From a virus, in the IMG/VR virus record IMGVR_UViG_3300020190_005437, positions 1 to 42,540 of that record: DNA of 42,540 nucleotides. One strand, 5' to 3'. Numbering within the stretch: position 1 is the first letter of the stretch; every line of letters starts with the position of its first letter. The notes under the pieces are model-generated. The model did no database searches, was not told the DNA's origin, and was given only the letters and a program-made list of their open reading frames with translations. Below are positions 1 through 42,496 of the stretch, piece after piece. The position numbers and the translations under genes are program-made.

Positions 1-2498
1 CTGGATCTTCCGGTACTAGAGGAACCTCTGGTTCTTCTGGATCATCCGGTTCTTCAGGATCATCAGGTTCTTCAGGATCATCAGGTTCTTCAGGTTCTTC
101 AGGATCATCTGGATCATCAGGTTCTTCTGGAACTTCTGGTTCTTCAGGTTCTTCAGGTTCTTCAGGATCATCAGGTTCTTCTGGAACATCAGGTTCTTCT
201 GGAACATCAGGTTCTTCTGGATCTTCCGGTACTAGAGGAACCTCTGGTTCTTCTGGATCATCCGGTTCTTCAGGATCATCAGGTTCTTCAGGATCATCAG
301 GTTCTTCTGGATCATCCGGTTCTTCTGGATCCTCTGGAACATCTGGCTCATCGGGAACATCTGGTTCTTCTGGATCATCAGGTTCTTCTGGATCATCCGG
401 TTCTTCAGGATCTTCAGGATCATCGGGTTCTTCTGGATCATCCGGTTCTTCAGGATCTTCAGGATCATCGGGTTCTTCTGGATCATCCGGTTCTTCTGGA
501 TCTTCTGGATCATCTGGTTCTTCTGGATCTTCTGGATCATCTGGTTCTTCCGGATCATCAGGTTCTTCAGGAACTCCTGGATCCTCTGGAACATCTGGCT
601 CATCGGGAACATCTGGTTCTTCTGGATCATCAGGTTCTTCTGGATCTTCTGGATCATCTGGTTCTTCCGGATCATCAGGTTCTTCTGGGTCTTCTGGATC
701 ATCCGGTTCTTCAGGATCTTCAGGATCATCGGGTTCTTCTGGATCATCCGGTTCTTCAGGATCTTCAGGATCATCGGGTTCTTCTGGATCATCCGGTTCT
801 TCTGGATCTTCTGGATCATCTGGTTCTTCTGGATCTTCTGGATCATCTGGTTCTTCCGGATCATCAGGTTCTTCTGGTTCTTCCGGATCATCAGGAACTT
901 CTGGTTCTTCGGGAACAAGAGGTACTTCTGGATCATCAGGTTCTTCTGGATCATCAGGTTCTTCAGGATCATCAGGTTCTTCTGGATCATCCGGTTCTTC
1001 CGGATCGTCCGGTTCTTCTGGTTCTTCTGGATCATCAGGATCTTCGGGAACATCTGGTTCTTCTGGATCGTCAGGTTCTTCTGGATCTTCTGGATCATCT
1101 GGTTCTTCTGGATCATCCGGTTCTTCTGGATCTTCTGGATCATCTGGTTCTTCCGGATCATCAGGTTCTTCTGGTTCTTCCGGATCATCAGGAACTTCTG
1201 GTTCTTCGGGAACAAGAGGTACTTCTGGATCATCAGGTTCTTCTGGATCATCAGGTTCTTCAGGATCATCAGGTTCTTCTGGATCATCCGGTTCTTCTGG
1301 ATCGTCCGGTTCTTCTGGTTCTTCTGGATCATCAGGATCTTCGGGAACATCTGGTTCTGTCACCTTATCTGGAACAACTGACAATGGTGTTTTAACCCTA
1401 AATGGTTCTTCTCCTAATGTATCTGTTGAATCGAATATAACTTTTTCTTCCCCGACTTTAAATCTTCTTGGAACCCCAACAAATGCTTTAGGTGGCGGTC
1501 AAATTCATCTTTCAAATACAACATCAAATAGAATAGAGTTTTCTCCTTATCCTAATGCATCGGCGGGGAATGCTGGTCCTACTCCCACTAATGTTTCCAC
1601 CGGAGAAAAGATAACATTGTGGTCTGGTATTAATGCTTCTAATGTAAACTACGCCTTTGGTACATATCCCCTCACTGGAAGACTTTGGTATTCTGTTCCA
1701 CAGGCAACCTCTTCTTTTGTTCATGCTTTCTACGGGGGAACAACAGAATTATTTAGGATTCAAGGAAATGGACAAATTCAATTAACGGCAGGAAGTGTTT
1801 CATTGCCTTCTATCTCTGCTGGTTTAGCAAATTCTTCAGACACCAACACCGGAATTTACTTTCCGGCTGCCGACACAATTGGATTTGTTGAAGGTGGCGT
1901 AGAAGCGATGAGGATAGATTCTAATGGAAGAATTAATCTTCTGGCAGGGTCTGCTGCTAATCCGATCTTAAACGCTGGTCTAAATTCTACAGACACCAAC
2001 ACCGGAATTTACTTTCCCTCAGCCGACAATATGGGTCTTGTGGCTGGTGGTACCGAGACTCTCAGATTGAATACAACGACCAACGCCAATATCCAGTTGG
2101 TTGCAGGATCTGCCACCGCACCAGTTCTTAACGCTGGTTTAAATTCTTCAGACACCAACACCGGAATTTACTTTCCGGCAGCTGATTCGATTGGATTTTC
2201 AACAAATGGTACCAGTAGAGGTATTATTAATAACACAGGTTATGGAATTCAAACGTCACCAAGTGCATGGGTACATATATCATCAACACCATCATCCTCT
2301 AAATGGATAAGATTTGATGCCACGCGATATAGTAATACACCGCCCGTAAATCAGGTAGTTCCGCCAGAATATGCTATAGGTAGTGATGGTAGCGCTGAAA
2401 TGTATCTCAAAGAACCAGATGTTTGGATGGAAGTTATACTTGATTCAGCTGGTAAAGGTGGTGCTGTAGTTTTAATCCCTTGTTACAGGCCAGGTTAA
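1..2498 (+). CDS. Collagen-like tail fibre protein (5' end outside window)
   Basis: The reading frame is open from the window edge (first full codon at 3) to the TAA at 2496-2498; the true start lies upstream. The first 450 or so residues are uninterrupted Gly-X-Y triplets, nearly all Gly-Ser-Ser or Gly-Thr-Ser, with rare Gly-Thr-Arg and Gly-Thr-Pro. Such collagen-like rods are known from phage tail fibres and form trimeric stalks. After the last triplet near 1353 comes a globular part with three copies of a segment containing DTNTGIYFP, each followed by a turn like ADxIGF and a short strand such as EAMRI. This is a pattern I associate with phage fibre C-terminal domains. The end (about residues 740-831 of the visible part) is probably the tip. 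Glycosyltransferases lie downstream, so the Ser/Thr residues are candidate glycosylation sites. The fibre role is a confident inference; the receptor is unknown. Confidence 0.85.
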   Translation, partial: GSSGTRGTSGSSGSSGSSGSSGSSGSSGSSGSSGSSGSSGSSGTSGSSGSSGSSGSSGSSGTSGSSGTSGSSGSSGTRGTSGSSGSSGSSGSSGSSGSSGSSGSSGSSGSSGTSGSSGTSGSSGSSGSSGSSGSSGSSGSSGSSGSSGSSGSSGSSGSSGSSGSSGSSGSSGSSGSSGSSGSSGSSGSSGTPGSSGTSGSSGTSGSSGSSGSSGSSGSSGSSGSSGSSGSSGSSGSSGSSGSSGSSGSSGSSGSSGSSGSSGSSGSSGSSGSSGSSGSSGSSGSSGSSGSSGSSGSSGTSGSSGTRGTSGSSGSSGSSGSSGSSGSSGSSGSSGSSGSSGSSGSSGSSGTSGSSGSSGSSGSSGSSGSSGSSGSSGSSGSSGSSGSSGSSGSSGSSGTSGSSGTRGTSGSSGSSGSSGSSGSSGSSGSSGSSGSSGSSGSSGSSGSSGTSGSVTLSGTTDNGVLTLNGSSPNVSVESNITFSSPTLNLLGTPTNALGGGQIHLSNTTSNRIEFSPYPNASAGNAGPTPTNVSTGEKITLWSGINASNVNYAFGTYPLTGRLWYSVPQATSSFVHAFYGGTTELFRIQGNGQIQLTAGSVSLPSISAGLANSSDTNTGIYFPAADTIGFVEGGVEAMRIDSNGRINLLAGSAANPILNAGLNSTDTNTGIYFPSADNMGLVAGGTETLRLNTTTNANIQLVAGSATAPVLNAGLNSSDTNTGIYFPAADSIGFSTNGTSRGIINNTGYGIQTSPSAWVHISSTPSSSKWIRFDATRYSNTPPVNQVVPPEYAIGSDGSAEMYLKEPDVWMEVILDSAGKGGAVVLIPCYRPG
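3..1352 (+). repeat. Gly-Ser-Ser collagen-like triplet array (150 x 9 bp)
   Basis: The Gly codon recurs in exact 9-base phase from 3 to 1344 and once more at 1353, giving 150 triplets. Larger blocks are duplicated within it: 1 onward recurs at 217 (offset 216), the block around 331 recurs at 583 (offset 252), and about 830-1061 recurs almost perfectly at about 1127-1358 (offset 297). All offsets are multiples of 9, so the frame and the Gly periodicity survive. This suggests growth by recombination or slippage under selection for the triplet phase. Confidence 0.95.
1837..2176 (+). repeat. Three identical 28-bp direct repeats in the fibre C-terminal domain
   Basis: Identical 28-base segments encoding a DTNTGIYFP-containing stretch lie at 1837-1864, 1990-2017 and 2149-2176 (spacings 153 and 159). 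They mark three tandem, roughly 51-53-residue modules. Identity at the DNA level suggests recent duplication or ongoing gene conversion. Confidence 0.9.
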
Positions 2499-2501
2499 TT
2501 T

Positions 2502-3062
2502 ATGATAACTGATCCTCAAATAATTCAAAAAATCAAAAATAGCGGAGCTATGGTTATAACAGTTGACTTAGAAGATTTTAAAAAGAAAATAAAGGGATAT
2601 CACCACCTAGGTGAAAATTACACATTGCCTGAAAATGTCTTTGTGTCAAAAGAAAAAATTTCACAATTAAGATCAGAACCTCCTCCACAAATAAATGTAC
2701 CAACAAAAATAGAAATTAAGATATCAGAAGGAAAGGGAATGGGAGTTTTTGCAACTCAAAAAATTTCAAAGGGAGAAATAATTGAAACTTGCTATCTATT
2801 AAAAATACCAAAAGAAGGTGATCTTCTCACTGATTATAGATATCTTTATCCAAAAAGAACACTCTCCGAGTATGTTATTCCACTTGGATATGGATGTATT
2901 TATAATCATTCCAATTCACCAAATGCTGATTGGATAGACCATCCCGAATATAAAGCTTTCAATTTCTTTGCTTTGGAAGATATAGAAATAGGAAAAGAGA
3001 TATGTATTTATTACGGGGGTGAAGATTATTGGAATTCGAGAGAAAAGAAAAACATAATATAA
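2502..3062 (+). CDS. SET-domain protein (putative protein lysine methyltransferase)
   Basis: This 186-residue protein starts three bases after the fibre stop. Residues 68-175 look like a SET domain. There is a GMGVFA motif near residues 79-84 (the usual G-x-G-VFA entry), the S-adenosylmethionine/knot motif NHSNSPNA at 135-142, and EICIYYG at 166-172 in place of the usual ELxxxYG. The post-SET cysteines are absent, as in many bacterial and viral SET proteins. The first 65 residues match nothing I recognise. SET enzymes methylate lysine side chains using S-adenosylmethionine. Tight coupling to the fibre gene suggests a virion protein as substrate, or a host protein; that is inference. Confidence 0.82.
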   Translation: MITDPQIIQKIKNSGAMVITVDLEDFKKKIKGYHHLGENYTLPENVFVSKEKISQLRSEPPPQINVPTKIEIKISEGKGMGVFATQKISKGEIIETCYLLKIPKEGDLLTDYRYLYPKRTLSEYVIPLGYGCIYNHSNSPNADWIDHPEYKAFNFFALEDIEIGKEICIYYGGEDYWNSREKKNII

Positions 3063-3076
3063 AAAAATATAAAAAT

Positions 3077-3385
3077 ATGGCAATTCAAGTTACAGGACTT
3101 TTTAAAAGTCCAACATCGCTTCTCATTCACGAGTCTCCTTTGTTGAAAATAAATGCACATCTTTCTTATAAAGGAGATTTAATGGTGGATCTTTTTGTTA
3201 CCTCATCTGATGGAATTTGTAGGGATACAGTGGTTTACCCCGATTTAAACAGAGAGACATTAACTTTCGACGTCAATATTTCTGATCCTTATGATCGGTT
3301 GATAAACGGATTGGAAACTTTTCTTATAACGGAACTACAATCTTCAAATTCTATCAACTCCACTTCTACTTTCAGCAGGGTATGA
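3077..3385 (+). CDS. Small hypothetical protein, probably structural
   Basis: I do not recognise the family. The protein is 102 residues if started at the ATG at 3077, which follows an A-rich leader. An in-frame start at 3029 would overlap the SET gene by 34 bases and add a Lys-rich tail that looks like read-through of the neighbour. The sequence is beta-rich, with alternating hydrophobic residues (LLKINAHLSYKGDLMVDLFV), and has no membrane segment. Its stop overlaps the next start as ATGA at 3382-3385, so the two are probably translationally coupled. It sits between fibre-linked and coiled-coil genes, so a small virion or fibre-associated role is plausible. Confidence 0.6.
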   Translation: MAIQVTGLFKSPTSLLIHESPLLKINAHLSYKGDLMVDLFVTSSDGICRDTVVYPDLNRETLTFDVNISDPYDRLINGLETFLITELQSSNSINSTSTFSRV

Positions 3386-3648
3386 ATACAACAGATTCCA
3401 CACAGCAAACAATTACCTCCGAAGAATTAAATAAAATTCAGGATTTGAAATCCACCGGTGAAAAATTTATAATTGAGTTTGGATCTTTGGAATTGGAGAT
3501 GTTGGTTCTATCTCAAAGAAAAAAAGATTTAGAGGATAAATTCATGAAATTCAAAATCGAGGAAAAGAACTTCATGGGAATGATGGATTACAAGTACGGA
3601 AACGTTAATTTGGATATAGAAACAGGAATTCTCACTCCTAGAAATTAA
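3382..3648 (+). CDS. Coiled-coil protein, paralogue 1
   Basis: This 88-residue protein has a heptad-rich centre (about residues 14-65) and a distinct C-terminal signature, YKYGNVNLDIETGIL. The same layout (SEEL-x-K-x-Q-x-L near the N-terminus, coiled coil, KYG-x-x-x-LD-x-x-TGI at the end) occurs in the protein at 4896-5186, so the two are paralogues. I recall comparable coil-containing proteins with a KYG..D..TG ending in T4-like marine phages, with unknown function. It overlaps the gene before it by four bases. Confidence 0.7.
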   Translation: MNTTDSTQQTITSEELNKIQDLKSTGEKFIIEFGSLELEMLVLSQRKKDLEDKFMKFKIEEKNFMGMMDYKYGNVNLDIETGILTPRN

Positions 3649-3659
3649 AGACATCAATT

Positions 3660-4805
3660 TTAATTCAGGAGTTCACGGTAAACTTCTGCCATTTTTTCTC
3701 CAGCCGAAAACCATGTATATTTCTGGCATGTTTTTCTTCCCTGCTCTCTGAAATAATCTTTTCTTTCTTCCGACAAATTCAAGAATTCTAAAAATCCTTG
3801 TTCGATCCCTTCTACCGTGGGATCAACAAAAATAGAATTTTCTGAATTAACGAAATCTGATAACCCGTCTCTTCTGGAAGAAAGTAAAACGCAATTAGAG
3901 GCCATCGCCTCCAAGGCAACCAGTCCAAATGGTTCGTGAACAGATGGCATAATAACTCCATCGGCATCGTTCAAGACATGAATTTTTTCTGAACCGTGTT
4001 TTGGACCCAAATAAAACATGTTCTTTTTTCCCTCCTGAAGTTTTTGATCCAAAAGTTTATTGCACAATAAATCTCCCCCATCGGGAGAACCAATGATCCA
4101 AAGTTCAATGCCGTCTGGGATATTGGCTTCCAATAATTTATCCACTCCCTTCATCTCGCAAAACCGTCCGATATAAACAATTTTATTTTTTTTCTTTTTG
4201 GGATTTGGGTTGTTTGATTTCCATTTTTTAAGGTCAATTCCATTTGGGACCAAGGACATCTTGGACGAAAATTCTGGAAATATATCGAGATAAAATTTAG
4301 ATATGGTGATAATTCGATCGGACCATCTCAAAAATCCAGTTTCCATTTCCAATAAAGTTTCTTGAATTGTTTTCCCGTCTTTTGTTGTTGGATCAAGGGC
4401 AATATTCAAATTCCTATGGATCTGCCCTCTTATTGCCAAATTTAAAGAGCACACCAAAGGAACATTGAAGTGATTAGACAAATGTCCACCGGGCATGTAT
4501 ACCGGCCAGTCGTACGCGTGCACCAAATCTGGTTTTGGCATACCCAATGATGTGACAAAGAAATTAATTTGATGTGCCAAATTGAAAACCAAAGGGTTTA
4601 TATTTCCACCGTTTGTTGGAACAAAACTCGGAAAAATTTGTTTGGTATTTGGAAATTCAAAACCAGAAGAAAGATGGGGAAAGCAAATGGTGTGTAATTC
4701 AAATTCGGAACTCAATTCATCGTGTAAGGCTAAATATTGATAGCCTAATCCTCCCATAGGTTTTTCCAATCTATCTGGAATTAAACTTAAAATTCTTTTT
4801 TTCAT
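3660..4805 (-). CDS. GT4-type glycosyltransferase
   Basis: This 381-residue GT-B glycosyltransferase has an N-terminal acceptor domain with a Gly-rich loop after the first strand (MGGLGYQYLALHDEL). The C-terminal nucleotide-sugar domain begins at NKIVYIGRFCEMKGVDKLL. It carries the EPFGLVALEAMA motif, the E-x7-E signature of retaining GT4/GT5 enzymes, and ends with the usual HKYTW-like helix (QKYTWFSAGEKM). It resembles glycogen-synthase-like members of GT4; the sugar cannot be read from sequence. It is the only minus-strand gene, convergent with 3648 and divergent from 4896, and it sits between two paralogous coiled-coil genes. It could modify phage fibres or host surface glycans. Confidence 0.88.
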   Translation of the reverse strand: MKKRILSLIPDRLEKPMGGLGYQYLALHDELSSEFELHTICFPHLSSGFEFPNTKQIFPSFVPTNGGNINPLVFNLAHQINFFVTSLGMPKPDLVHAYDWPVYMPGGHLSNHFNVPLVCSLNLAIRGQIHRNLNIALDPTTKDGKTIQETLLEMETGFLRWSDRIITISKFYLDIFPEFSSKMSLVPNGIDLKKWKSNNPNPKKKKNKIVYIGRFCEMKGVDKLLEANIPDGIELWIIGSPDGGDLLCNKLLDQKLQEGKKNMFYLGPKHGSEKIHVLNDADGVIMPSVHEPFGLVALEAMASNCVLLSSRRDGLSDFVNSENSIFVDPTVEGIEQGFLEFLNLSEERKDYFREQGRKTCQKYTWFSAGEKMAEVYRELLN

Positions 4806-4895
4806 TCTTCCATTTGAACTTTTATGAATTTGAAAAATAAAAATTTCAAAAGAGGGATGAAATAATTACCCAATTTCAAAATAAAAGAATTTGCT
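4806..4895. other. Divergent intergenic region
   Basis: This 90-base AT-rich gap separates the minus-strand glycosyltransferase from the + strand coiled-coil gene, so it must hold or sit beside promoters for both. I see no GATATATA box in it. Several TTTG tetramers are present, including one just before the ATG at 4896, but no spacing fits a promoter convincingly. Confidence 0.5.
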
Positions 4896-5186
4896 ATGGA
4901 AAATCAAATTAAATTAAGTTCAGAAGAACTAGAAAAGGTTCAATCTCTAAGAAACGAGGCTCGTGAAAACGTTGACAAAATAGGTCGCATGAACATCCAA
5001 CATCATTTTCTGACCGAGGAAATCAGATTTGTTGAAGAACAACTTCAGTCTTTATATGGAGAAACGTCGGATATCAAAAAAAGAGAACAAGAATTGGTGA
5101 ACAATATTGTATCTAAATACGGTGAAGGGCAATTGGATTTCAACACCGGAATTTATTCCCAAAACCAAGATGAAAAGCCCAACTGA
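4896..5186 (+). CDS. Coiled-coil protein, paralogue 2
   Basis: This 96-residue protein is built like the one at 3382-3648. SSEELEKVQSL lies near the N-terminus, followed by charged heptads to about residue 70 and the terminal KYGEGQLDFNTGIY signature. No enzymatic motif or membrane segment is visible. Its last 17 bases overlap the next glycosyltransferase if that gene starts at 5170, which suggests coupled expression. It is probably a structural or assembly component; function unknown. Confidence 0.7.
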   Translation: MENQIKLSSEELEKVQSLRNEARENVDKIGRMNIQHHFLTEEIRFVEEQLQSLYGETSDIKKREQELVNNIVSKYGEGQLDFNTGIYSQNQDEKPN

Positions 5187-6231
5187 TACCCTGCGAAGAA
5201 CAAAATATCACCTTCATAGAATTTTAAGTTCTGTTGAAAATTCTATCCTCGAAGAATCTGGAAATAAACCCAGAATTCTTTTTGTTGCTCCGCACCTTTC
5301 AACTGGGGGGATGCCTCAGTATCTTTATAAGTGCATCGAGAAACTTTTGCCAGAAGGAGAAATCTATTGTGTAGAATACAATAACCTATCGGACGAATTT
5401 GTAGTTCAAAGACAAAGAATACAAAATTTATTGGGGGAAAATTATTTTAGAATAGACACAGAAGACAAAAGTGAATTTCTAGAAATTGTGGAAAGGGTTT
5501 GCCCAGACGTCATCCACTTCCAAGACTTTGTGGAATTCTTCGTTGGTGATGATATTTGTCGAAAAATATTCTCCCCAGACAGACCTTGGTTTATTTTTGA
5601 AACGTGTCACTCTTCAAATGTTAAAATTTTGGACAAATTCTGGGCTCCTGATAAATTGGTGATGGTAAATAAATGGATGACCGAAGTTTTTAAAAGTTCT
5701 GGTTTCGAATTGGATATCTTGGAATATCCCATAGAAGATTTTATCGGGATTGGAAAAGAAAGTGCCAGGGAACAACTTGGTTTAGACCCAAACAAAAAAC
5801 ATGTTATTAACATCGGTCTTTTCACCCCAGGTAAAAATCAAGGGGAACTCATGGAATACGCCAGACTACTAGAAAATGAACAAATAGAATTTCATTTCAT
5901 TGGTAATTTGGCGGGTAACTTTCAAGAATATTGGGAGCCTCTGATGAAGAATGTTCCAAGAAATTGCAGAATTTGGGGGGAAAGACACGATACTGACCTA
6001 TTTTATGAAGCATCCGATTTGTTTGTTTTCTCCTCGATTTGGGAATTGAACCCGATTGTTATAAAGGAATCTCTTTCTTGGAATTTACCCATACTAATGA
6101 GGAGATTGCCTTCTTACATGGACGACTACGACGAAACCCCCTTAGTTCATTTTTATTCAAACCAAGAGCCTGTGACTGATCATGAATACAATGTTGAACT
6201 AATTCGAAAAATTTTGAATTTACCATCATGA
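5170..6231 (+). CDS. GT4-like glycosyltransferase
   Basis: This protein is 353 residues from the ATG at 5170. An upstream in-frame start at 5107 would overlap the previous gene by 80 bases. It is a GT-B fold protein: RILFVAPHLSTGGMPQYLYKCI is the N-terminal Rossmann strand and Gly loop, PDVIHFQDF the acceptor-domain strand, and NIGLFTPGKNQGELMEYA the start of the donor domain. DLFVFSSIWELNPIVIKESLSW is the E-x7-E-type donor-binding segment. It is divergent from the minus-strand glycosyltransferase. Its stop overlaps the next gene as ATGA (6228-6231), placing it in one unit with the heptosyltransferase-like gene. Donor and acceptor are unknown. Confidence 0.8.
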   Translation: MKSPTDTLRRTKYHLHRILSSVENSILEESGNKPRILFVAPHLSTGGMPQYLYKCIEKLLPEGEIYCVEYNNLSDEFVVQRQRIQNLLGENYFRIDTEDKSEFLEIVERVCPDVIHFQDFVEFFVGDDICRKIFSPDRPWFIFETCHSSNVKILDKFWAPDKLVMVNKWMTEVFKSSGFELDILEYPIEDFIGIGKESAREQLGLDPNKKHVINIGLFTPGKNQGELMEYARLLENEQIEFHFIGNLAGNFQEYWEPLMKNVPRNCRIWGERHDTDLFYEASDLFVFSSIWELNPIVIKESLSWNLPILMRRLPSYMDDYDETPLVHFYSNQEPVTDHEYNVELIRKILNLPS

Positions 6232-7409
6232 AAAAAAGTGGGATAGAAATTTACAGAAATATCAACAAAAATAAAAACGTACACGTTCCTGAACAAATCC
6301 AATTTCAATTTTCTTATGATTATTCTCCAAAAATAGATTTGAAGGGAAATGATCCAAAGAGTGAAAGAAATATAAAATTCATTGATCCAACCACTTCGGA
6401 GTGTGTCCACGAAAGTACTTTGAAGCCTGGTCATTTTACCTCCCTTTTTCGAAGATGGTTTACCCCCTGGTTAGTGGAAGGTTATGATCGTGAAAATAAG
6501 GTTTGGTCTTTAGATTTCGAGTCTACTTTGTTTGGGGGAAAAATTTTGATATCAATAGATTCTTCTTCATTAGGAGACACAATTGCATGGTTACCTGTGA
6601 TTGATCAACTAAGAAAAAAATACAAGGCACAATTAATCGTTACAACATTTTGGAATGAAATTATGTCACACTTTTTCCCCCAAATTAAATTTTCACCCCC
6701 TGGATTTAGGGATCCAGCTGCCAATGTGGTGTTTGGGGTAGGATGGTATGAAGAAGACGATAGGAACATACACCGGCGTGATCCGAGATCAATTTCTTTG
6801 CAACAAGTTGCAGGTGACTTAATTGGTGTCGAAGTAAATTCGGATATTTTACCTTCTCAAATTCCGGGATGGCTGGAGACAACTAAATCGAGGTTTGAAG
6901 GAAAATATGTTTGTATTGCCACCGAGTCCACGGCAAATGCAAAACATTGGCACTATCCAGGAGGTTGGCAAACTTTGGTTGATCATCTCGAATCAATTGG
7001 ATATGAAGTGGTGGTGATTCACAGCCAACAAAATACTTTGGATGGAGTTGTTGATAAAACCGGAACTATAGACATGACCGACCGAATGATAGATTTATAT
7101 CATGCAGATTTTTTCGTCGGTATTGGATCCGGTTTATCTTGGCTGGCTTGGGCTTTGAGAAAACCAGTGGTAATGATTTCTGGATTTTCTTCTCCCCATT
7201 GTGAATTTTCTCATTTGAATTATAGAGTAATTAATTTCGATGTGTGCCATGGGTGTTTCAACGACGTTAGACACAAATTCGATCGTGGAGATTGGAATTG
7301 GTGTCCTAGACTCAAGAACACAGAAAGAATGTTTGAGTGTACAACACAAATCACCCCCGATATGGTAATTTCAAAAATCCAAAATTTAATGTCCGAACAG
7401 AAATTGTAA
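6228..7409 (+). CDS. TibC/BAHT-type protein O-heptosyltransferase
   Basis: This 393-residue protein matches the bacterial autotransporter heptosyltransferase family (TibC, Aah), which moves heptose from ADP-heptose to Ser side chains. Visible family features are the loop SSLGDTIAWLPVIDQLRKKY (residues 113-132), the donor-domain motif ATESTANAKHWHYPGGW (231-247), the GIGSGLSWLAWAL helix (298-310), and the C-terminal iron finger with Cys340, Cys343, Cys359 and Cys371 in the frame CHGC...DRGDWNWCPR...FEC. The first 95 residues probably correspond to the family's N-terminal domain. Start ATG overlaps the previous stop. With the Ser-rich fibre upstream and an HldE-type kinase at 33826, protein heptosylation is the best inference; acceptor and exact sugar are unproven. 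Confidence 0.87.
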   Translation: MKKSGIEIYRNINKNKNVHVPEQIQFQFSYDYSPKIDLKGNDPKSERNIKFIDPTTSECVHESTLKPGHFTSLFRRWFTPWLVEGYDRENKVWSLDFESTLFGGKILISIDSSSLGDTIAWLPVIDQLRKKYKAQLIVTTFWNEIMSHFFPQIKFSPPGFRDPAANVVFGVGWYEEDDRNIHRRDPRSISLQQVAGDLIGVEVNSDILPSQIPGWLETTKSRFEGKYVCIATESTANAKHWHYPGGWQTLVDHLESIGYEVVVIHSQQNTLDGVVDKTGTIDMTDRMIDLYHADFFVGIGSGLSWLAWALRKPVVMISGFSSPHCEFSHLNYRVINFDVCHGCFNDVRHKFDRGDWNWCPRLKNTERMFECTTQITPDMVISKIQNLMSEQKL

Positions 7410-16300: not shown

Positions 16301-16855
16301 ATGGCCGGTTTACCACATTACCAAAATTCATTGTATTCGATCAATAAATACGAACCAGTTTATCTCAATCAATTTGAGGTAACGGTAATTCCCCCTGCAG
16401 CTGTTCTAGGGGGTCAAATTTTGTTACAACAGGTTATGAGTGTACAAGGAATGGACGTGGATAAAAACCCATCTTTTATTTTTCAGAAATACAAGTTTGC
16501 CAAAAGAAACTATGCGGGGGGTAAACCAGATAAAACCAGTTTGGATTTGAGCGTGAAATTTACGGTTAATTTGAATGACGATAATTCGATGTACACGTTT
16601 AAAACCCTAAGACAGTGGACCGATTTGATTTACAATCCACTCACGGGAGCTATGGGGATCAAAAGGGATTACACTGGAACGGTTATCATTTCTATTTTCA
16701 ACAAAAACGGAGATGTTTTCAGGAGAATTACCTGCAAAGACTGTTTCCCTATGAAAGCTATTGATCCGATGGAGTTGGATTATGTGAATGGAACTACTTT
16801 GTATGAAATCACCATGACATGGGCGGTTGATTATTGGGATGATCTATTTACTTAA
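16301..16855 (+). CDS. 19: Tail tube protein, copy 1 (gp19-like)
   Basis: This 184-residue protein has the T4 gp19 layout. It starts with MAGLPHYQNSLY and YLNQFEVTVIPP, has a central YKFAKRNYAGGKPDKTSLDLSVKF strand pair, the highly conserved RQWTDLIYNPLTGAMG loop, and an end like LYEITMTWAVDYWDD. T4 gp19 (163 residues) stacks as hexameric rings to make the inner tail tube through which DNA passes. The leader is A-rich. It is followed after 15 bases by a second, paralogous tube gene. Confidence 0.95.
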   Translation: MAGLPHYQNSLYSINKYEPVYLNQFEVTVIPPAAVLGGQILLQQVMSVQGMDVDKNPSFIFQKYKFAKRNYAGGKPDKTSLDLSVKFTVNLNDDNSMYTFKTLRQWTDLIYNPLTGAMGIKRDYTGTVIISIFNKNGDVFRRITCKDCFPMKAIDPMELDYVNGTTLYEITMTWAVDYWDDLFT

Positions 16856-16870
16856 AAATTAAAAAAATAA

Positions 16871-17452
16871 ATGGCAGGTTTACCACACTTCAATAATTCT
16901 CTAGCGGCTCGCAACAACTTCGAACCAGTTTTTCTTAACCAATTCGAAGTTCTGATTACACCTCCGGCAGGAGTGACATTAGGTAATGTGAGATTCAATG
17001 GGGAATCTATTATGACGCAGCAGGTCAAAAGCGTAACCGGATCTCTTGCAGTTGATATTCAACCTGCTGCCCCAGTAACTCAGTATTATAAATTTGCCGA
17101 AAGAAGATATGCAGGTGGTGAACCTTCAACTTCCGATGTTCAATTTTCGATTTCTTTTGAGGTGAACTTAAACGAGAATAATTCAATGACCATTTTTAAA
17201 ATCTTGCGTCAATGGTCAGATCTGATTTACAATCCTCTGACTGGTGCTATGGGATTGAAAAAAGATTACACTGGACAAATTGTTGTTTCAATCTACAACA
17301 AACAAGGCGATGTTTTTCGCAGATTAACTTTAAACAACTGCTTTTTGATCGAACCTTTGACCACAATGGCATTAAGTTATGATTCTGGGGATGCTTTATA
17401 CATTCTAGATACTACCTGGAAATCTGATTACTGGCAAGACCAATTCCTATAA
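16871..17452 (+). CDS. 19: Tail tube protein, copy 2 (gp19-like)
   Basis: This 193-residue protein is a paralogue of the one upstream, sharing MAGLPHxxNSL, FLNQFEVLITPP, YKFAERRYAGGEPS, RQWSDLIYNPLTGAMG and the YWQDQF end. It carries an insertion of about ten residues near 35-60 (around NVRFNGESIMTQQVKS). Both copies look intact, so the tube may be mixed, or one copy may form the tube ends or a connector. The start follows an A-rich run with no separate promoter box, so it is probably co-transcribed with copy 1. Confidence 0.95.
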   Translation: MAGLPHFNNSLAARNNFEPVFLNQFEVLITPPAGVTLGNVRFNGESIMTQQVKSVTGSLAVDIQPAAPVTQYYKFAERRYAGGEPSTSDVQFSISFEVNLNENNSMTIFKILRQWSDLIYNPLTGAMGLKKDYTGQIVVSIYNKQGDVFRRLTLNNCFLIEPLTTMALSYDSGDALYILDTTWKSDYWQDQFL

Positions 17453-30585: not shown

Positions 30586-32211
30586 ATGGCAGGATTTAAT
30601 GAGAACCCAAACACCAACCCTGTATTCCAAAGAATTAGGGACTCGATCAAAAATCTGAGCAATTTCGGATTGAGATATGGAGACATGGTGGTCAAAAATT
30701 CACAGGCAATTGGTACCACAGAAGCAGAATTTTTAAAGAAAGGTCCGATTGAAGATGAAACTACACTTTTCTCTTTAGGTAGACAAGATACGACTACCAG
30801 ACAGTATATTTCATATTTTGATAAAGACTATGCAGGAAAAAGAGATTATCTAAGAAAATTTTCTTTAAATCCTGAGATTGAATACATTTTGGATACGGTC
30901 TGCGACGAGGCAATTTCCTATGATGGATTTAATTTTTTCGCATATCCAGCCTTCTTAAACATTATTGGAATTAAAAAAGATGTTTCAGATAAAATTGATT
31001 CGACGTACAAAAAATTGTACGACATGTTTGGTTTCAATGACGATATTTCTGCATGGCAATATTTCAGACAACTCCTTGTTGATGGTTTCGTTGCTTTCGA
31101 AATCGTATACGATGACAAGGGGAAAAATATTATTGGTTTCAAAGAACTAGACGCAACCACCCTTATGCCTTCCGTAGAAAAGCAAAAAGATGGAACCTTT
31201 TTAAATGTTTGGTATCAATATCCTAAGGACGAAAGAAAAAGGAGAATGCTTTACGATTCCCAAATCATTTATCTTTCTTATGCCAAAGGCAATACTGTTT
31301 CAAGAGTAAGTTATTCAGAAAGATTGATTCGTCCGTACAATGTTCTCAGGATCATTGAATACACCCGTGTTATTTGGTCTGTGATGAATGCATCATTCCG
31401 TCTAAAAATGACAGTCCCAGTGGGGTCCAGATCGCAACAAAAGGCTATGCAAACCCTTGGCGAGTTGATGTCCATATACAAAGAAGATATTCAATTCAAC
31501 GATGAAAGTGGGGAACTTTCGGTAAATGGTCAGCCAAAAATTCAATTTTACAAAAATTATCTTATGCCTAAGGGAGCTTTAGGTACTCCAAATATTGAAC
31601 CCCTTAACACCGCCGGACCAAATTTGAATGATCCAGCTCCTTTGGCTTATTTTTTCGACAAGTTGGTTCAAGAATCTAAAATTCCATTTTCTAGATTCCA
31701 AGGACCAGATGGTGGATCGATTGGTAAATATGCCAATGCAGCCGAAGGATTGGATAAAGAGGAAATTAGATTCGCAAAGTTTATCATGAGATTAAGATCC
31801 GTTTTCCAGGACATTCTTATAAAACCTTTGTGGATTCAATTGTGTAGAGATTTTCCGCAATTGGAGAAAGATTATATGTTCAGAAGTCAACTTGGATTAA
31901 CTTTTGTTTCGGATAATCCATTCAGAGTGAATCAGGAAATAGAAACGATGAACAAAAGGAAAGAATCCATAGATGCCATGTATGGATTGGTGGACGGAGA
32001 AGGACAGCCTTTCTTTTCTTTGGGTTATCTAATTGAAAATTTTCTAGGAATGACTGAGGATGATATCAAAGCCAATGAAGAAGCTAAAGAGAAGACCAAG
32101 AATAAAAAATCAAAAGAAACTCCAGAAGGTGGAGAAGGCGCTGAAGGTGGTGATTCAGAAGCAGGAACTGAACCAGAAGGATCCCCGCCAGAAACAGAAA
32201 CACCGGCATAA
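30586..32211 (+). CDS. 20: Portal protein, copy 1 (gp20-like)
   Basis: This 541-residue protein is close to T4 gp20 (524). Portal rings form the head entry pore and dock the terminase and the neck. Conserved segments include ISYFDKDYAGKRDYLRKFSL, EIEYILDTVCDEAI, AWQYFRQLLVDGFVAFEIVYD, QIIYLSYAKGNTVSRVSYSERLIRPYN, and the clip/stem region QFYKNYLMPKGALGTPNIEPL. The C-terminal 45 residues are a Lys/Glu/Gly-rich tail. It is followed after two bases by a second, full-length portal gene. The start follows an A-rich leader. Confidence 0.95.
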   Translation: MAGFNENPNTNPVFQRIRDSIKNLSNFGLRYGDMVVKNSQAIGTTEAEFLKKGPIEDETTLFSLGRQDTTTRQYISYFDKDYAGKRDYLRKFSLNPEIEYILDTVCDEAISYDGFNFFAYPAFLNIIGIKKDVSDKIDSTYKKLYDMFGFNDDISAWQYFRQLLVDGFVAFEIVYDDKGKNIIGFKELDATTLMPSVEKQKDGTFLNVWYQYPKDERKRRMLYDSQIIYLSYAKGNTVSRVSYSERLIRPYNVLRIIEYTRVIWSVMNASFRLKMTVPVGSRSQQKAMQTLGELMSIYKEDIQFNDESGELSVNGQPKIQFYKNYLMPKGALGTPNIEPLNTAGPNLNDPAPLAYFFDKLVQESKIPFSRFQGPDGGSIGKYANAAEGLDKEEIRFAKFIMRLRSVFQDILIKPLWIQLCRDFPQLEKDYMFRSQLGLTFVSDNPFRVNQEIETMNKRKESIDAMYGLVDGEGQPFFSLGYLIENFLGMTEDDIKANEEAKEKTKNKKSKETPEGGEGAEGGDSEAGTEPEGSPPETETPA

Positions 32212-32213
32212 TT

Positions 32214-33815
32214 ATGGCAGGATTTAACGATGATAACAGTCAACAGCGTTCCTTTTTAGGAAATCTGTACCGAAACCTATCTAAAATTGGAAGGTTTGGT
32301 ATGCAGTACGAGGATATGGTTATCCGGAATTCTCAGGCTATAGGGGCAACCGAATCTACCTTTTTCAACAATGAAGGAACTGGATTTACCGAGAATGACG
32401 CTTTCTTCTGGACTTTAGGTTATCAAGATACTAGAGTAAGAAAATACATAGCCTATTTCGACAAGGATTATCTCGGGAAAAGAGAATTCTTAAGAAAATT
32501 TGCTTTAAACGGAGAAATTGATTTCATTCTGGATACTTTATCAGACGATGCTATCAACTACGACGACAAAAATTTCTTCGGGTATCCATCTTTATTAAAT
32601 GTTGATTTAAAACCCGAAGTCCGTTCTAAGGTAGAAGAAAATTTCAGAACTTTGTACATGCTGTTTGGTTTTCAACAAAGTACTCTTGCCTGGCAGTATT
32701 TTCGTCAATTTCTAATTGATGGTTTTTTGGCTTTTGAAATTGTGTACTCGACAGATGGAAAAAAAATTGTTGGTTTCAAAGAATTAGATGCCACCTCTCT
32801 TCAACCTGCAACTGAACAACAGCCCAACAAAGAATTTCAACAAATCTGGATTCAATATCCGGGTGATCCTAGAATGACCAGAAAATTAAAGGCAGAGCAG
32901 GTCATTTATCTTTCCTATGCCAAGGGTAATTCCGTTTCCAGAGTCAGCTACACTGAAAGGCTGATCAGATCTTATAACATTCTGAGAATCATGGAAAATA
33001 CTCGGGTAATTTGGAATGTCATGAACGCTTCGTATCGTTTGAAATTCGTTATTCCTGTTGGAACACAATCCGGACAAAAAGCTATGCAAACCCTGGGACA
33101 GCTGATGTCTCAGTATAAAGAAGAAATTCAAATTAATGATACTTCCGGGGAATTGACTGTCAATGGTGCCCCCAGAGTACAGTTTTACAAAAATTATCTC
33201 TTTCCGGAAAAAGACGGGGAATCGCCAGACATTAACACTTTAAATCCAAATGGTCCCGATTTTAACGTGATGGAAAATGTTGTTTATTTTTACAACAAGC
33301 TAAAATTAGACTCCAAAATTCCATATGCTAGGTTTGCTGGGAGAAGTGGTCCTGCCACCTATCAAATATCAATCGACCAGTTAGAAAGAGACGAAATTAG
33401 ATACGAAAAATTTGTTACCCGTTTGAGATCTATTTTCCAAGAACTTTTGGTTAAACCTCTTTATATCCAAACTTGTTTGGATTTTCCTGCCTTGTCTGAA
33501 GACAGATCATTTAAAGTAAATTTGGGTTTGAACTTCGTTAAAGAAAATGTTTTCGAACAACTAATTGTTTTATCTAACTACACGAAAAGAACGACATTTA
33601 TCACCGCATTGGGAGATATGAAACAAAAAATCGGAGAAGAGGAAGTTCCATATTTCGATAAGGAGTGGTTAATAAAAAGATGGCTTGGTTTGAGTATGGA
33701 CGAATATAGAGAGAACGAAAAATTCAAAAAAGACGAAAAGAAACAAGCGGACAAGGCCAAAAAGGATAAAGGGGAAGGTGGGGAATCAGCAGATGCACCA
33801 GATTTCACTCTTTAA
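32214..33815 (+). CDS. 20: Portal protein, copy 2 (gp20-like)
   Basis: This 533-residue protein is clearly paralogous to copy 1 along its whole length. It shares MAGFN at the start, IAYFDKDYLGKREFLRKFAL, AWQYFRQFLIDGFLAFEIVY, VIYLSYAKGNSVSRVSYTERLIRSYN, and QFYKNYLFPEKDGESPDINTL. Differences cluster in the N-terminal 50 residues, the region after the stem (GRSGPATYQISIDQL) and the C-terminus (KKDKGEGGESADAPDFTL). No frameshift or loss of a conserved segment is visible. Both copies could form a mixed 12-mer, or one may have a distinct role such as an initiator or a neck element. Confidence 0.94.
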   Translation: MAGFNDDNSQQRSFLGNLYRNLSKIGRFGMQYEDMVIRNSQAIGATESTFFNNEGTGFTENDAFFWTLGYQDTRVRKYIAYFDKDYLGKREFLRKFALNGEIDFILDTLSDDAINYDDKNFFGYPSLLNVDLKPEVRSKVEENFRTLYMLFGFQQSTLAWQYFRQFLIDGFLAFEIVYSTDGKKIVGFKELDATSLQPATEQQPNKEFQQIWIQYPGDPRMTRKLKAEQVIYLSYAKGNSVSRVSYTERLIRSYNILRIMENTRVIWNVMNASYRLKFVIPVGTQSGQKAMQTLGQLMSQYKEEIQINDTSGELTVNGAPRVQFYKNYLFPEKDGESPDINTLNPNGPDFNVMENVVYFYNKLKLDSKIPYARFAGRSGPATYQISIDQLERDEIRYEKFVTRLRSIFQELLVKPLYIQTCLDFPALSEDRSFKVNLGLNFVKENVFEQLIVLSNYTKRTTFITALGDMKQKIGEEEVPYFDKEWLIKRWLGLSMDEYRENEKFKKDEKKQADKAKKDKGEGGESADAPDFTL

Positions 33816-33825
33816 ATTTCAATAA

Positions 33826-34815
33826 ATGAATTTCAAAGAATTATTTTCAACACAAAAAATTCTTGTTGTGGGTGATTCCATTTTGGATCACTATGTGTAT
33901 GGAAAAGTTCACAGGGTATCTCCAGAAGCACCAGTTCCGGTTGTTCTTAAGAACAAAGAAGAATTTTTCCTGGGCGGGGCGGCAAATGTAGCACAGAACA
34001 TCACGACATTCGGAGCCAATTGTACCCTGTTATCTTTGGTTGGTGATGATGAAGATGGAAAAATTTTGTTTGAAAAATGTATCGAGAAAAAAATCAATCC
34101 TATTTTTATCGAAGAAGAATCCAGACCAACAACAAAAAAAACCAGAGTAATAGGGAACAAACATCAAATCGTTAGAATTGATGTTGAAACAACTTGTGAT
34201 TTATTAGAAAACTCAACTTCAAAAATTATTGAAATTTTCGACGAACAGATTCAATTTCACGATGGAGTTATTTTTCAAGATTATGGGAAAGGATTACTAA
34301 CGAATTATGTTTTAGCGTCTCTAATTGAAATAGCGAAAAAATACTCGAAAAAGATTTTGGTAGATCCTAAAGTGGCAGATCTTGGGCGATATCAAGGAAT
34401 CGATCTGATCAAGCCAAATCTGAGTGAATTTAAGGCTATGGTGAATATCAAATCTGAAGAAGATTTAGAAATTGACCAGATTGTAAATTATGCCCAATTG
34501 GTGATGGAAGAATTCGACTACCAATATTTCCTAATTACTTTATCAGAAAATGGCATGTTATTGGTTGGAAGACATTTTTCTCATCATATCCCTGGAATTA
34601 GTGTGGATGTTGCCGATGTCTCTGGGGCAGGGGATACCGTTTCTGCCGTATTTGGATTGGGATTCTTTTCTGGGGAGAACGGGGTTACATCCAATGATGA
34701 TTTAATTGGTGTGGCAAAACTCGCTAATTTGGCAGGATCTTTAGTGTGTAGGCACCCGGGAGCGGTTTCTGTTGATGCTGAAGAATTATTCGAAAAAAAC
34801 CCAATTTTTTACTGA
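33826..34815 (+). CDS. hldE: HldE-type D-glycero-D-manno-heptose-7-phosphate kinase
   Basis: This 329-residue PfkB-fold kinase is close to the kinase half of HldE (RfaE). It has VVGDSILDHYVYGKVHRVSPEAPVPVV (14-40), FFLGGAANVAQNI (47-59), LVDPKVADLGRYQGIDLIKPNLSEF (178-202), and the catalytic signature DVSGAGDT (264-271, base Asp270). The RxSPEAPVPVV segment marks heptose kinases rather than ribokinases. The C-terminal adenylyltransferase domain of bifunctional HldE is absent, so this makes heptose-1,7-bisphosphate and needs host GmhB and adenylyltransferase to reach ADP-heptose. It sits after the portal genes, far from the heptosyltransferase at 6228. Confidence 0.9.
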   Translation: MNFKELFSTQKILVVGDSILDHYVYGKVHRVSPEAPVPVVLKNKEEFFLGGAANVAQNITTFGANCTLLSLVGDDEDGKILFEKCIEKKINPIFIEEESRPTTKKTRVIGNKHQIVRIDVETTCDLLENSTSKIIEIFDEQIQFHDGVIFQDYGKGLLTNYVLASLIEIAKKYSKKILVDPKVADLGRYQGIDLIKPNLSEFKAMVNIKSEEDLEIDQIVNYAQLVMEEFDYQYFLITLSENGMLLVGRHFSHHIPGISVDVADVSGAGDTVSAVFGLGFFSGENGVTSNDDLIGVAKLANLAGSLVCRHPGAVSVDAEELFEKNPIFY

Positions 34816-40767: not shown

Positions 40768-40784
40768 TCCTGTAAAGCACAGGA
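40768..40784 (+). promoter_or_regulatory. Small hairpin over the UvdE-like start
   Basis: TCCTGT (40768-40773) and ACAGGA (40779-40784) form a perfect 6-bp stem with a five-base loop. It includes the A of the ATG and the AGG just before it, so it could reduce translation of the UvdE-like gene. The stem is short, so chance is likely. Confidence 0.25.
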
Positions 40785-41665
40785 TGATTTTAAGCAAAAC
40801 CCCACACAAATTAGGTTCTATTGCTTCCAGCATGAATTTTCCAAAATCTGGAGAAATTCATGCCGATGAATTCATAAAATACATCTCAAAAACGGTTGAA
40901 ACACACGTGAAGAATGGAATAGATGTTACCTGTTTTCAATTGTCAGAATCCGATTTGAATTTTCCGGATTTTTCCTCCTTAGAAGAGGAACATCCGGATC
41001 TCGTTTCTCTGGACGAATTGAGTCAATCAATTAGAATTAAAGGACATAGGATTTTATTTTTCCTGTCATCGTATTTCTTCTTGGGATCAAGATTACCAGA
41101 TTCGGTCCAACAAACACACACGATGATTGGCAAGCTGGCTTCTCTGGTTGAAGGTCTTGGCATTGCCGAACCTTGTATTTTGCTCCGGGTTGGAAGCGCC
41201 TATGGAAACCGAAGGGAAACCGCCCAAAGATTTTGTGAGGAGATTTTCAAATTTCCAATCACAATCCGAAACATGTTGGCCGTGACGAATGATGATAAGC
41301 CAAGTTTATTTTCGGTTACAGATTTGCTATCTGGAGTTTTTTATCCGGCAAAAATTCCAATTTGTTTTCGATCTTTGCCACATCAGTTCAATACGGGTGG
41401 TTTGAATTTTAGAGAGGCTTTATTTTTATCCTGTTCTACCTGGGAATCCCCACACAAACCAATTTATTTTCACGGTGAAAGTTCGATGATAGACGAGAAG
41501 GGAATTTCACTTTCATCTTCTCCAACTTCACGTTTAACCCACAGGATTCCAACCTTCGGGTTAGACGTAGATGTGGTTATAGAATCTTCCGATTCATTCA
41601 AAACTTGTGTCCAATATTTATCGGAACATAAATCATTAATCCCATTAGTAATACCCAAAATTTGA
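40784..41665 (+). CDS. UvdE-like protein with altered active site
   Basis: This 293-residue protein follows the TIM-barrel plan of UV damage endonuclease (UvdE). It has LRVGSAYGNRRETAQRFCEEI (134-154), RNMLAVTNDDKPSLFSVTDLL (162-182), IPICFRSLPHQFN (191-203) and LDVDVVIESSD near the end. Metal-binding positions differ from the family: the usual Glu of LxLENDD is Thr168, the Asp of FDxxHH is Arg196 and only His200 of the His pair remains, and the His of the VIHxGG strand appears to be an Arg. It is either a degraded copy or a divergent, perhaps non-nuclease relative. A repair glycosylase gene follows. Confidence 0.6.
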   Translation: MILSKTPHKLGSIASSMNFPKSGEIHADEFIKYISKTVETHVKNGIDVTCFQLSESDLNFPDFSSLEEEHPDLVSLDELSQSIRIKGHRILFFLSSYFFLGSRLPDSVQQTHTMIGKLASLVEGLGIAEPCILLRVGSAYGNRRETAQRFCEEIFKFPITIRNMLAVTNDDKPSLFSVTDLLSGVFYPAKIPICFRSLPHQFNTGGLNFREALFLSCSTWESPHKPIYFHGESSMIDEKGISLSSSPTSRLTHRIPTFGLDVDVVIESSDSFKTCVQYLSEHKSLIPLVIPKI

Positions 41666-41698: not shown

Positions 41699-42496
41699 AT
41701 GCCAGAACTAGCCGAGGTAAGATTAACTTCCGAATATGTCCACAGACTTTCTGAAAAAAAAACTTTTCACTCCGTTTGGAAAAACCCAAATCACAAGGGT
41801 AATTCTTTTGAAATTCCGTATCCTTTCAATTTGAGTTCGGTGGCGAGAGGCAAAGAAATGATGTTAATTTTCAATCTCGCCCAAAATTTTTTTTCTGACT
41901 CTTCTAGGTCAAAAAAACCAATTCATCTTATGATGACAATGGGAATGTCTGGTCATTTTAGGTGGATAAAAAAGGAGGACGAAAAACCAAAACATACACA
42001 TTTGAGTTTTATTTCTAACTTAGGACAACTTTGTTTCGTGGATGTAAGAAGATTTGGAAGATGGGCGTTTGGAACCTGGAATCCTAAAAGAGGTCCAGAT
42101 CCGACTCAAGAGTACGAATCCTTTTTAGCTCACGTTTATTCCAATTTGGAATCTAAATCATTCGAACGTCCTATCCACGAGGTTTTGATGAATCAAGATT
42201 ATTTCAATGGGATTGGCAATTATCTGAGGGCTGAAATTTTATATAGAATTGACTGCAGCCCTTTCTTACCAGCCAGAGAATTCATTCTTCGACATCCGGA
42301 AGTTTTGTTGCTCTGTCGAGATTTACCAATTGTAGCATATGGGTTAGGCGGGGGTAGATTTAAAGATTGGAAAAATCCAGACGGGCAAACTCCCACAAAC
42401 TGGGATGAATTTATGTTGTGCTACGGAAATAGATCTATGTCTAAAATAACCGATAAAAAAGGGAGAACTTTTTGGTTCGACCCTAAATGGATTTAA
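41699..42496 (+). CDS. NEIL1-like zincless Nei/Fpg DNA glycosylase
   Basis: This 265-residue base-excision repair glycosylase/AP lyase has the catalytic N-terminus MPE with Pro2 and Glu3, RGKEMML with conserved Lys52, MGMSGHF (81-87), FVDVRRFGRW (113-122) and NGIGNYLRAEILYR (170-183). The C-terminal zinc finger of Fpg/Nei is replaced by CYGNRSMSKITDKKGRTFWF (241-260), which looks like the zincless finger of vertebrate NEIL1, including the Arg at the position of R256. The match to NEIL1 around residues 113-190 is striking for a phage protein. It would remove oxidised pyrimidines. The start is chosen for MPE. Confidence 0.92.
   Translation: MPELAEVRLTSEYVHRLSEKKTFHSVWKNPNHKGNSFEIPYPFNLSSVARGKEMMLIFNLAQNFFSDSSRSKKPIHLMMTMGMSGHFRWIKKEDEKPKHTHLSFISNLGQLCFVDVRRFGRWAFGTWNPKRGPDPTQEYESFLAHVYSNLESKSFERPIHEVLMNQDYFNGIGNYLRAEILYRIDCSPFLPAREFILRHPEVLLLCRDLPIVAYGLGGGRFKDWKNPDGQTPTNWDEFMLCYGNRSMSKITDKKGRTFWFDPKWI

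Follow-up and report, generated by a model that had tools for sequence, protein, structure and literature searches.

The window analysed here is the whole of a 42,540-base virus record, IMGVR_UViG_3300020190_005437 of IMG/VR, in which portal and terminase matches are of T4 type and whose closest terminase relatives in the phage collection share no more than 38.7% identity with its own. Its left end carries a gene for a serine-rich, collagen-like tail fibre and, a few kilobases on, a pair of overlapping genes for a GT4-type glycosyltransferase (GT4b) and an enzyme resembling the autotransporter heptosyltransferase TibC. We propose that fibre and pair form a phage-encoded protein O-glycosylation module, to which a distant heptose kinase gene may contribute. 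The features concerned are:

3..2498, plus strand: collagen-like tail fibre, the proposed acceptor (Pfam Collagen 7.1e-65; PHROG tail fibre matches)
3..1361, plus strand: Gly-X-Y rod of this fibre, proposed to be O-glycosylated (151 strict triplets)
5107..6231, plus strand: GT4b, the conserved GT4-type partner of TibC (Pfam Glycos_transf_1 5.4e-11), its end overlapping the TibC start
6228..7409, plus strand: TibC-like heptosyltransferase of a thumb-less branch, the proposed fibre O-heptosyltransferase (TIGR04414, fold match, residues)
33826..34815, plus strand: heptose-7-phosphate kinase with HldE domain I only, a possible precursor booster (TIGR02198, 4e84, GAGD motif)

An earlier note on this DNA had described about 150 Gly-X-Y triplets nearly all of Ser and Thr, a TibC-like heptosyltransferase at 6228 and two GT4-type glycosyltransferases within 7.4 kb. 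All three descriptions hold: both GT4 proteins (GT4b and a second one, GT4a, described below) match Pfam Glycos_transf_1, the product of the gene at 6228 scores above the TIGR04414 cut-off, and the rod counts 151 triplets (GSS 130, GTS 15, GTR 4, GTP 1 and GSV 1), with 276 Ser (91%) and 20 Thr (7%) among its 302 X and Y positions. The open reading frame (ORF) of the fibre runs off the left window edge, its 5' end being cut, and contigs near-identical to the window (L001-L003, L005) reach 308 triplets, so that 151 is a lower bound. Its long Gly-X-Y run, its prediction as a virion protein and a Pfam Collagen score above cut-off mark it as a collagen-like phage tail fibre; the triple-helix stability of the rod is nevertheless uncertain because Pro is almost absent (one GTP in 151 triplets). 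Pro has a median share of X/Y positions of 0.003 in TibC-associated runs; for background collagens this share is 0.15 where Ser is low and 0 where the run is Ser-rich.

The product of 6228..7409 reaches 261.9 bits against TIGR04414, the profile of the BAHT family, whose cut-off is 200, and phmmer pairs it with TibC (4rap) at 1e-56. In the phmmer alignment, the TibC residues D110, T226, K230, R286 and W305, which are reported as required or sugar-binding (PMC4358343), correspond to D117, T235, K239, R286 and W305 of the window protein; the TibC iron-finger cysteines 339, 342, 358 and 370 correspond to C340, C343, C359 and C371. The catalytic Asp, the ADP-heptose pocket and the four-Cys iron finger expected of a BAHT enzyme are thus all found. 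D117, K239, W305 and the four cysteines are invariant in 27 of 27 phage rows and again in 31 mixed rows, 11 of them bacterial, whereas R286 is present in the window protein but variable in many other phage rows; the position of P300, the stereoselectivity residue of TibC (PMC4358343), is Gly in the window protein according to the phmmer alignment. An AlphaFold2 model with a mean predicted local distance difference test score (pLDDT) of 89.5 matches ADP-heptose-bound TibC (4rb4) best, at Z 38.7 over 356 residues with a root-mean-square deviation of 2.2, followed by a Veillonella GT9 protein (21.2); lipopolysaccharide (LPS) heptosyltransferases score about 20. The fit to TibC extends from residue 23 to 392 and includes the N-terminal barrel. 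The beta-hairpin thumb that TibC needs for its dodecamer (PMC4358343) is where the two part: this stretch has 9 residues in the window enzyme versus 18 in autotransporter-type rows and coincides with a gap in the phmmer alignment, and no autotransporter domain was found among the window proteins scanned, which are part of its ORFs. Because the profile and catalytic features agree with BAHT while the thumb and the autotransporter partner are missing, we place the enzyme, from its sequence, in a sister branch rather than in BAHT itself, and would expect it to work like a BAHT enzyme.

GT4b likely starts at ATG 5170, since ORF residues 1-20 have a pLDDT below 50 and residue 22 is Met. Its alignment of 20 rows has 42 invariant columns. 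The predicted fold is of the GT-B type, with HepE (4xsu, Z 25.8) as best PDB match, SdgB and GtfA at about 23.5 and a T4-type DNA alpha-glucosyltransferase (1y8z) at Z 21.0, a range of folds that, on this model, leaves the acceptor unfixed; a search against the sequences of solved structures gave no match. The link of GT4b with TibC is seen in gene order. Grouping at ~80% identity gave 46 clusters of TibC domains, drawn from 79 viral loci as well as from named phages and loci added later. Of these clusters, 23 have GT4b adjacent to TibC, 7 have the two fused and 1 has GT4b at another place in the locus. No GT4b was found in the other 15, of which 12 hold less than 1.2 kb of upstream sequence; three of the 15 have GT4b elsewhere in the record (W01, G132, G134). 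Other fusions join an FkbM methyltransferase domain to GT4b (L042) or to TibC (L056), and a different GT4 domain to TibC (L042, L064, L229, L234). The L229 protein, from Microcystis phage Mel-JY01 (PP395634.1, 4750-8430), the one named isolate with the system among the phages found, is annotated 'methyltransferase FkbM'; it holds GT4 and TibC-type domains and has no FkbM match at E 0.001, so the annotation is misleading. Ser-rich triplets lie close to this gene as well. The GT4b profile matches 0 of 30 low-Ser records and 0 of 14 Ser-rich fibre contigs lacking TibC, and we rejected on the latter count the idea that GT4b replaces TibC beside Ser-rich fibres.

The association of TibC with Ser-rich repeats emerges from both directions of search. 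Starting from the enzyme, 48 of the 79 TibC loci hold a Gly-X-Y run of at least 10. In 42 of them Ser fills at least 30% of X/Y positions, as it does in 18 of the 20 clusters with a run that are left after dereplication; among the background collagen loci listed, which come from a scan that admitted any residue at X and Y, the figure is 19 of 118. Five triplets of the GSS/GTS type, sought as a DNA pattern whose WSN codons also admit Arg and Cys (the G191 match is of this kind), occur in 15 of 33 TibC records and in none of 17 low-Ser collagen controls that lack TibC. These 33 records were hand-chosen (mostly repeat-free fetched flanks, named phages and six collagen-first records) and set beside the 17 controls; when the six chosen through their collagen are dropped, 9 of 27 still carry the pattern. 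Starting from the fibre, we took 120 viral contigs with long Gly-X-Y runs among the matches listed, and searched all of them with TIGR04414: 6 of the 20 that have a Ser-rich run match, versus 0 of the 100 others (Fisher 1e-5, related contigs being treated as independent); among those of at least 20 kb the counts are 4 of 11 and 0 of 50. Classified by dominant frame, the same contigs give 5 of 18 versus 1 of 102, the exception (L171/G128) having, beside GPQ-type repeats, a long ORF with GTS-rich ones, of which the fetched stretch covers 2,020 residues; the any-run classification that yields 6 of 20 versus 0 of 100 was devised after this result had been seen. These 6 include a 113-residue end fragment at 129 bits, below the cut-off (L155/G122), without which the figures are 5 of 20 versus 0 of 100, whereas a weak match of 20.9 bits (L161/G124) was counted as no TibC, and two contigs with no run of 10 (L160, L210) as not Ser-rich. 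Serine-rich collagen-like runs of another type, GYS/GFS, occur in L136, L142, L195 and L226, with no TibC on the contig.

Bacterial relatives extend this association beyond phages. The set comprises the best 80 of 580 relatives, retrieved with patterns that favour DW[ND]WCP-type enzymes, and yields 90 TibC rows. Within it, a Ser/Thr-rich triplet protein lies in the locus for 10 of 13 rows with a short thumb (9 or 14 residues) and for 0 of 75 rows with an 18-19-residue thumb, many of them close Burkholderia-group relatives; L249 (17 residues) and L250 (20 residues) fall outside both groups. The partners are mostly small and end in (GTS)n or (GSS)n, several with what looks by eye like a lipoprotein N-terminus. 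Such small, secreted or lipoprotein-like proteins stand beside a thumb-less TibC relative in L241, L242, L244-L247, L254, L275 and L280, and the two are possibly a surface glycoprotein system. The L252 partner is a fibre-like protein on a contig that looks phage-derived; indeed L249, L250 and L252, assigned to Chloroflexi, Winogradskyella and Rickettsiaceae metagenome-assembled genomes (MAGs), all look phage-like (TibC with GT4b and/or a collagen-like fibre) and perhaps stem from binned or infecting phages. Beside thumb-bearing bacterial enzymes, five of the five neighbours scanned are AIDA/autotransporter proteins. In five Gammaproteobacteria-type MAG genomes (G177, G180-G183), all 60 of the 60 genome-wide matches to the repeat pattern fall in genes beside TibC. 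A tree of 89 rows, made by a quick method with the thumb columns excluded, splits 28 thumb-bearing bacterial rows from 46 phage and 15 bacterial rows (SH-aLRT 100). On the phage side, the bacterial GSS/GTS rows occupy separate branches, and longer thumb stretches occur in L234, L235 and L250 (20-22 residues) and in L249 (17).

The earlier note had also reported an HldE-type kinase at 33826. The kinase domain is there, its best solved relative being D-beta-D-heptose 7-phosphate kinase (4e84, 1.2e-52), but the 329-residue protein has no adenylyltransferase domain and scores 318.2 bits against TIGR02198, below the cut-off of 345, even if this remains its best family match. Of the 23 window-clade records, 3 stop short of the kinase site. 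The gene is present in 19 of the remaining 20 (G013 is without it), at 27-28 kb from TibC, and in G001 and G019 the contig ends within it. A short form occurs in 4 of the 19 (G016, G018, G021, G023), with the GAGD motif in the three inspected (L096-L098). Across the loci compared at this site (L095-L098, L100-L103), the shorter heptose-kinase-like protein of the four relatives is perhaps of cyanophage type, as the lengths are alike, and would be a possible gene replacement at the same site. Related kinases are found in 34 phage records, mostly cyanophages, and TibC in only 4 phage records; the kinase-bearing cyanophages are absent from these four, and the Microcystis phage has TibC and is not among the organisms with the kinase. 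A 735-kb phage (LR756501) combines TibC and GT4b with a kinase, encoded far from them, at 39% identity. In nine other TibC records, the adenylyltransferase profile TIGR02199 matches G038 and, weakly, G043, and GmhA matches G025 and G027. We rejected the kinase as a general TibC partner, given that it is largely confined to the window clade, where it may raise precursor supply but is no hallmark of the system.

Between the fibre and the GT4b-TibC pair lie three further genes:

2502..3062, plus strand: SET-domain protein, a gene of the variable cassette (Pfam SET 5.9e-12), unmatched at that place in most relatives
3660..4805, minus strand: GT4a, an accessory glycosyltransferase that possibly extends the glycan (Pfam Glycos_transf_1 9.9e-22)
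4896..5186, plus strand: small conserved ORF upstream of GT4b, at 36-56% identity in less close clade members, with no Pfam match

Of the 79 related loci, only 10 have GT4a as best match, and five of these ten are near-identical to the window. The genes at this place vary: GT4a and SET in the window, two GT2 genes in L036, sulfotransferases in L014 and L015, and 4 of 10 ORFs scanned from this interval have no Pfam match. Elsewhere in the window, a UvdE-like UV endonuclease (40784-41665) adjoins a DNA glycosylase of Fpg/Nei type (41699-42496), and two tandem pairs were recognized by eye: portal-like genes at 30586-32211 and 32214-33815, the first of which matches Portal_T4, and tail-tube-like genes at 16301-16855 and 16871-17452.

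We consider it probable (roughly 0.72) that the fibre gene belongs with the GT4b-TibC pair in a single module for protein O-glycosylation, encoded by the phage, that places heptose on the Ser-rich rod. Gene identities, catalytic and metal-binding residues, the adjacency or fusion of the pair and the statistical tie to Ser/Thr repeats are all observed in the sequence, and the fold is predicted. That the phage O-heptosylates its own fibre had been put forward in the earlier note, and it now has comparative support from GT4b adjacency and fusion, from the Ser-rich repeats and from the bacterial (GTS/GSS)n proteins, while its sugar, linkage and purpose, like the reaction itself and the order of its steps, are what we infer. 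In the infected cell, ahead of assembly, the TibC-like enzyme would take host-made ADP-heptose as donor and attach heptose to the hydroxyl groups of Ser residues in the (Gly-Ser-Ser)n rod, and GT4b would add a second sugar or act on the same acceptor. Extension of the glycan by both GT4 enzymes, also suggested before, fits GT4b as the conserved partner better than GT4a, which is accessory, lies on the other strand and recurs in few loci. The variable neighbours (GT4a and SET here, GT2 pairs, sulfotransferases and FkbM domains elsewhere) may diversify or cap the glycan, and in the window clade the kinase may raise the supply of precursor. The glycan might stiffen the proline-free rod, shield it or tune receptor binding. 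Proline stabilises collagen triple helices, and since it is nearly absent here, dense glycans may stand in for it.

A broader reading can be offered only tentatively, and we would not bet on it: a mostly thumb-less TibC branch, usually with GT4b, might be dedicated to O-glycosylating proline-free (GSS/GTS)n rods with a dense glycan and an exchangeable cassette. In such a branch dense glycan, not proline, would give a stiff, soluble rod, and the transferases, methyltransferases and sulfotransferases of the cassette would vary its surface. It would span distantly related phages (the T4-like window clade, records above 200 kb, the Microcystis phage and the 735-kb phage) and, in bacteria, proteins of the surface or of lipoprotein-like type.

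Several observations weigh against the module as proposed. TibC without a Ser-rich fibre, which the earlier note had named as damaging to its idea, does occur in a minority: 6 of 19 TibC records of at least 50 kb (G014, G024, G032, G038, G044, W02) are without the GSS/GTS pattern, and 13 have it. Similarly, 6 of the 48 TibC loci with Gly-X-Y runs (L016, L021, L022, L038, L065, L073) have mostly GAQ- or GDK-type runs; GSSGTS islands can be made out in parts of three of them (L016, L021, L073). Conversely, TibC is missing from 14 of the 20 Ser-rich collagen contigs listed, so that a contig may carry the repeat without the enzyme. The Fisher tests, moreover, treat related contigs as independent. 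A GT4b-profile match is missing in 4 of 6 TibC-bearing collagen contigs, hence GT4b is not universal. In whole bacterial genomes the pattern occurs in 8 of 13 thumb-less versus 7 of 25 thumb-bearing genomes (p 0.08), and one thumb-less genome (G179) has the repeat on another contig number than expected for TibC. An independent-pairs test of the tie between thumb and repeat was not significant; thumb loss is essentially one evolutionary split, and the tie is therefore not independent evidence. Co-occurrence of all three gene types in relatives, a further expectation of the note, is found for TibC with Ser-rich repeats but not for the kinase, present in 0 of 22 TibC records outside the window clade. 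Nor does the rest of the pathway appear: TIGR02199 and TIGR00441 (GmhA) match 0 of 17 window-clade records, mostly fragments, in a search that did not include HldD and GmhB. With neither match in the clade, the most that the phage might do is to strengthen a single step of a pathway run by the host, and this is what is left of the claim that the phage makes or boosts ADP-heptose: a boost of one step is possible, a complete pathway is missing and the kinase is largely confined to the clade.

Other explanations have to be set against the same data. The one to which we give most weight, while still thinking it unlikely, keeps the glycosylated fibre and changes the sugar: the TibC-like enzyme and GT4b would transfer a first sugar other than heptose, and the kinase would be unrelated. 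Gly at the P300 position of the window enzyme, the poor conservation of R286 in many phage rows and the lack of the kinase from 22 of 22 TibC records outside the clade all fit this, yet equivalents of D110, T226, K230, R286 and W305 are all present in the window protein, and its model comes closest in fold to ADP-heptose-bound TibC and to GT9/LPS heptosyltransferases. A different target is less probable again, namely that the glycosyltransferases modify host LPS or surface glycans, for example in superinfection exclusion, and lie near the fibre because this is the usual hypervariable region. Glycosyltransferases of the pelagimyophage tail-fibre region have been read in this manner (PMC7029224), a similar role has been proposed for freshwater actinophages (PMC10202952), and GT4b has a general GT-B fold akin to LPS and polysaccharide enzymes. 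However, thumb and iron finger are described as unique to TibC beside WaaC and MurG (PMC4358343), the window protein retains the iron finger and the N-terminal barrel, and the Ser-rich tie appears from both search directions and again beside bacterial (GTS)n proteins.

Chance might also bring these genes together, as the variable tail region of aquatic phages often holds collagen-like fibres and often, too, cassettes of glycosyltransferases; the contigs, moreover, are fragments, and related loci are not independent. The absence of TibC from all 100 contigs listed without a Ser-rich run, set beside its 6 in 20, the fusion of GT4b to TibC and the recurrence of the same repeat beside bacterial relatives make this quite improbable. 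We give least credence of all to glycosylation of phage DNA with hypermodified bases, a known phenomenon in phages (PMC12619734) that the T4-type DNA alpha-glucosyltransferase among the GT4b fold matches brings to mind: it leaves the adjacency to Ser-rich fibres and bacterial (GTS)n proteins unexplained, and TibC acts on protein Ser (PMC4358343). 

Bacterial collagen-like proteins of the BclA kind carry O-glycans on their triplets, with other transferases and sugars and on Pro-containing triplets. The TibC/AAH enzymes (BAHT, TIGR04414; eLife 2014, PMC4358343) are similar to the window enzyme in family, predicted fold, catalytic Asp, pocket residues and iron-finger Cys, and there are a number of differences: (i), the window enzyme has a shortened thumb; (ii), its neighbours are a phage collagen-like fibre and GT4b; (iii), it falls in a separate clade. 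Virion glycans with phage glycosyltransferases implicated are likewise described for mycobacteriophages (Freeman et al. 2023, as cited in PMC10955285 and PMC12619734); there the glycans are on capsid and tail-tube C-termini (PMC12619734), whereas here a TibC-type enzyme is paired with a Ser-rich fibre, the comparison being one of targets and not of the enzymes themselves. Mimivirus L230 shows that a virus may glycosylate its own collagen-like proteins (Luther et al. 2011, via PMC4691112), although in that giant virus a bifunctional hydroxylase-transferase puts glucose on hydroxylysine (PMC4691112) and the acceptor proposed here is Ser. Phage-borne heptose kinases, too, have precedents in the RfaE/HldE-like kinases of cyanophages and pelagimyophages (PMC7029224), but none of the cyanophages with such kinases is among the four phage records with TibC. 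A search of open-licence PMC literature, with subscription journals and preprints outside its scope, found no phage TibC-type system. TibC-type autotransporter enzymes, mycobacteriophage virion glycosylation and Mimivirus collagen glucosylation are already known, and what would be new is a thumb-less phage branch with a Ser-rich fibre.

If the proposal is true, heptose-based glycosylation of receptor-side fibre proteins would be encoded by the phages themselves in many environmental lineages. This would explain glycosyltransferase genes of the tail-fibre region to which a role in LPS or DNA modification is often assigned. It would also provide a substrate rule, GSS/GTS triplets, that is directly testable, and a compact set of enzymes with which collagen-like rods could be produced in glycosylated form.

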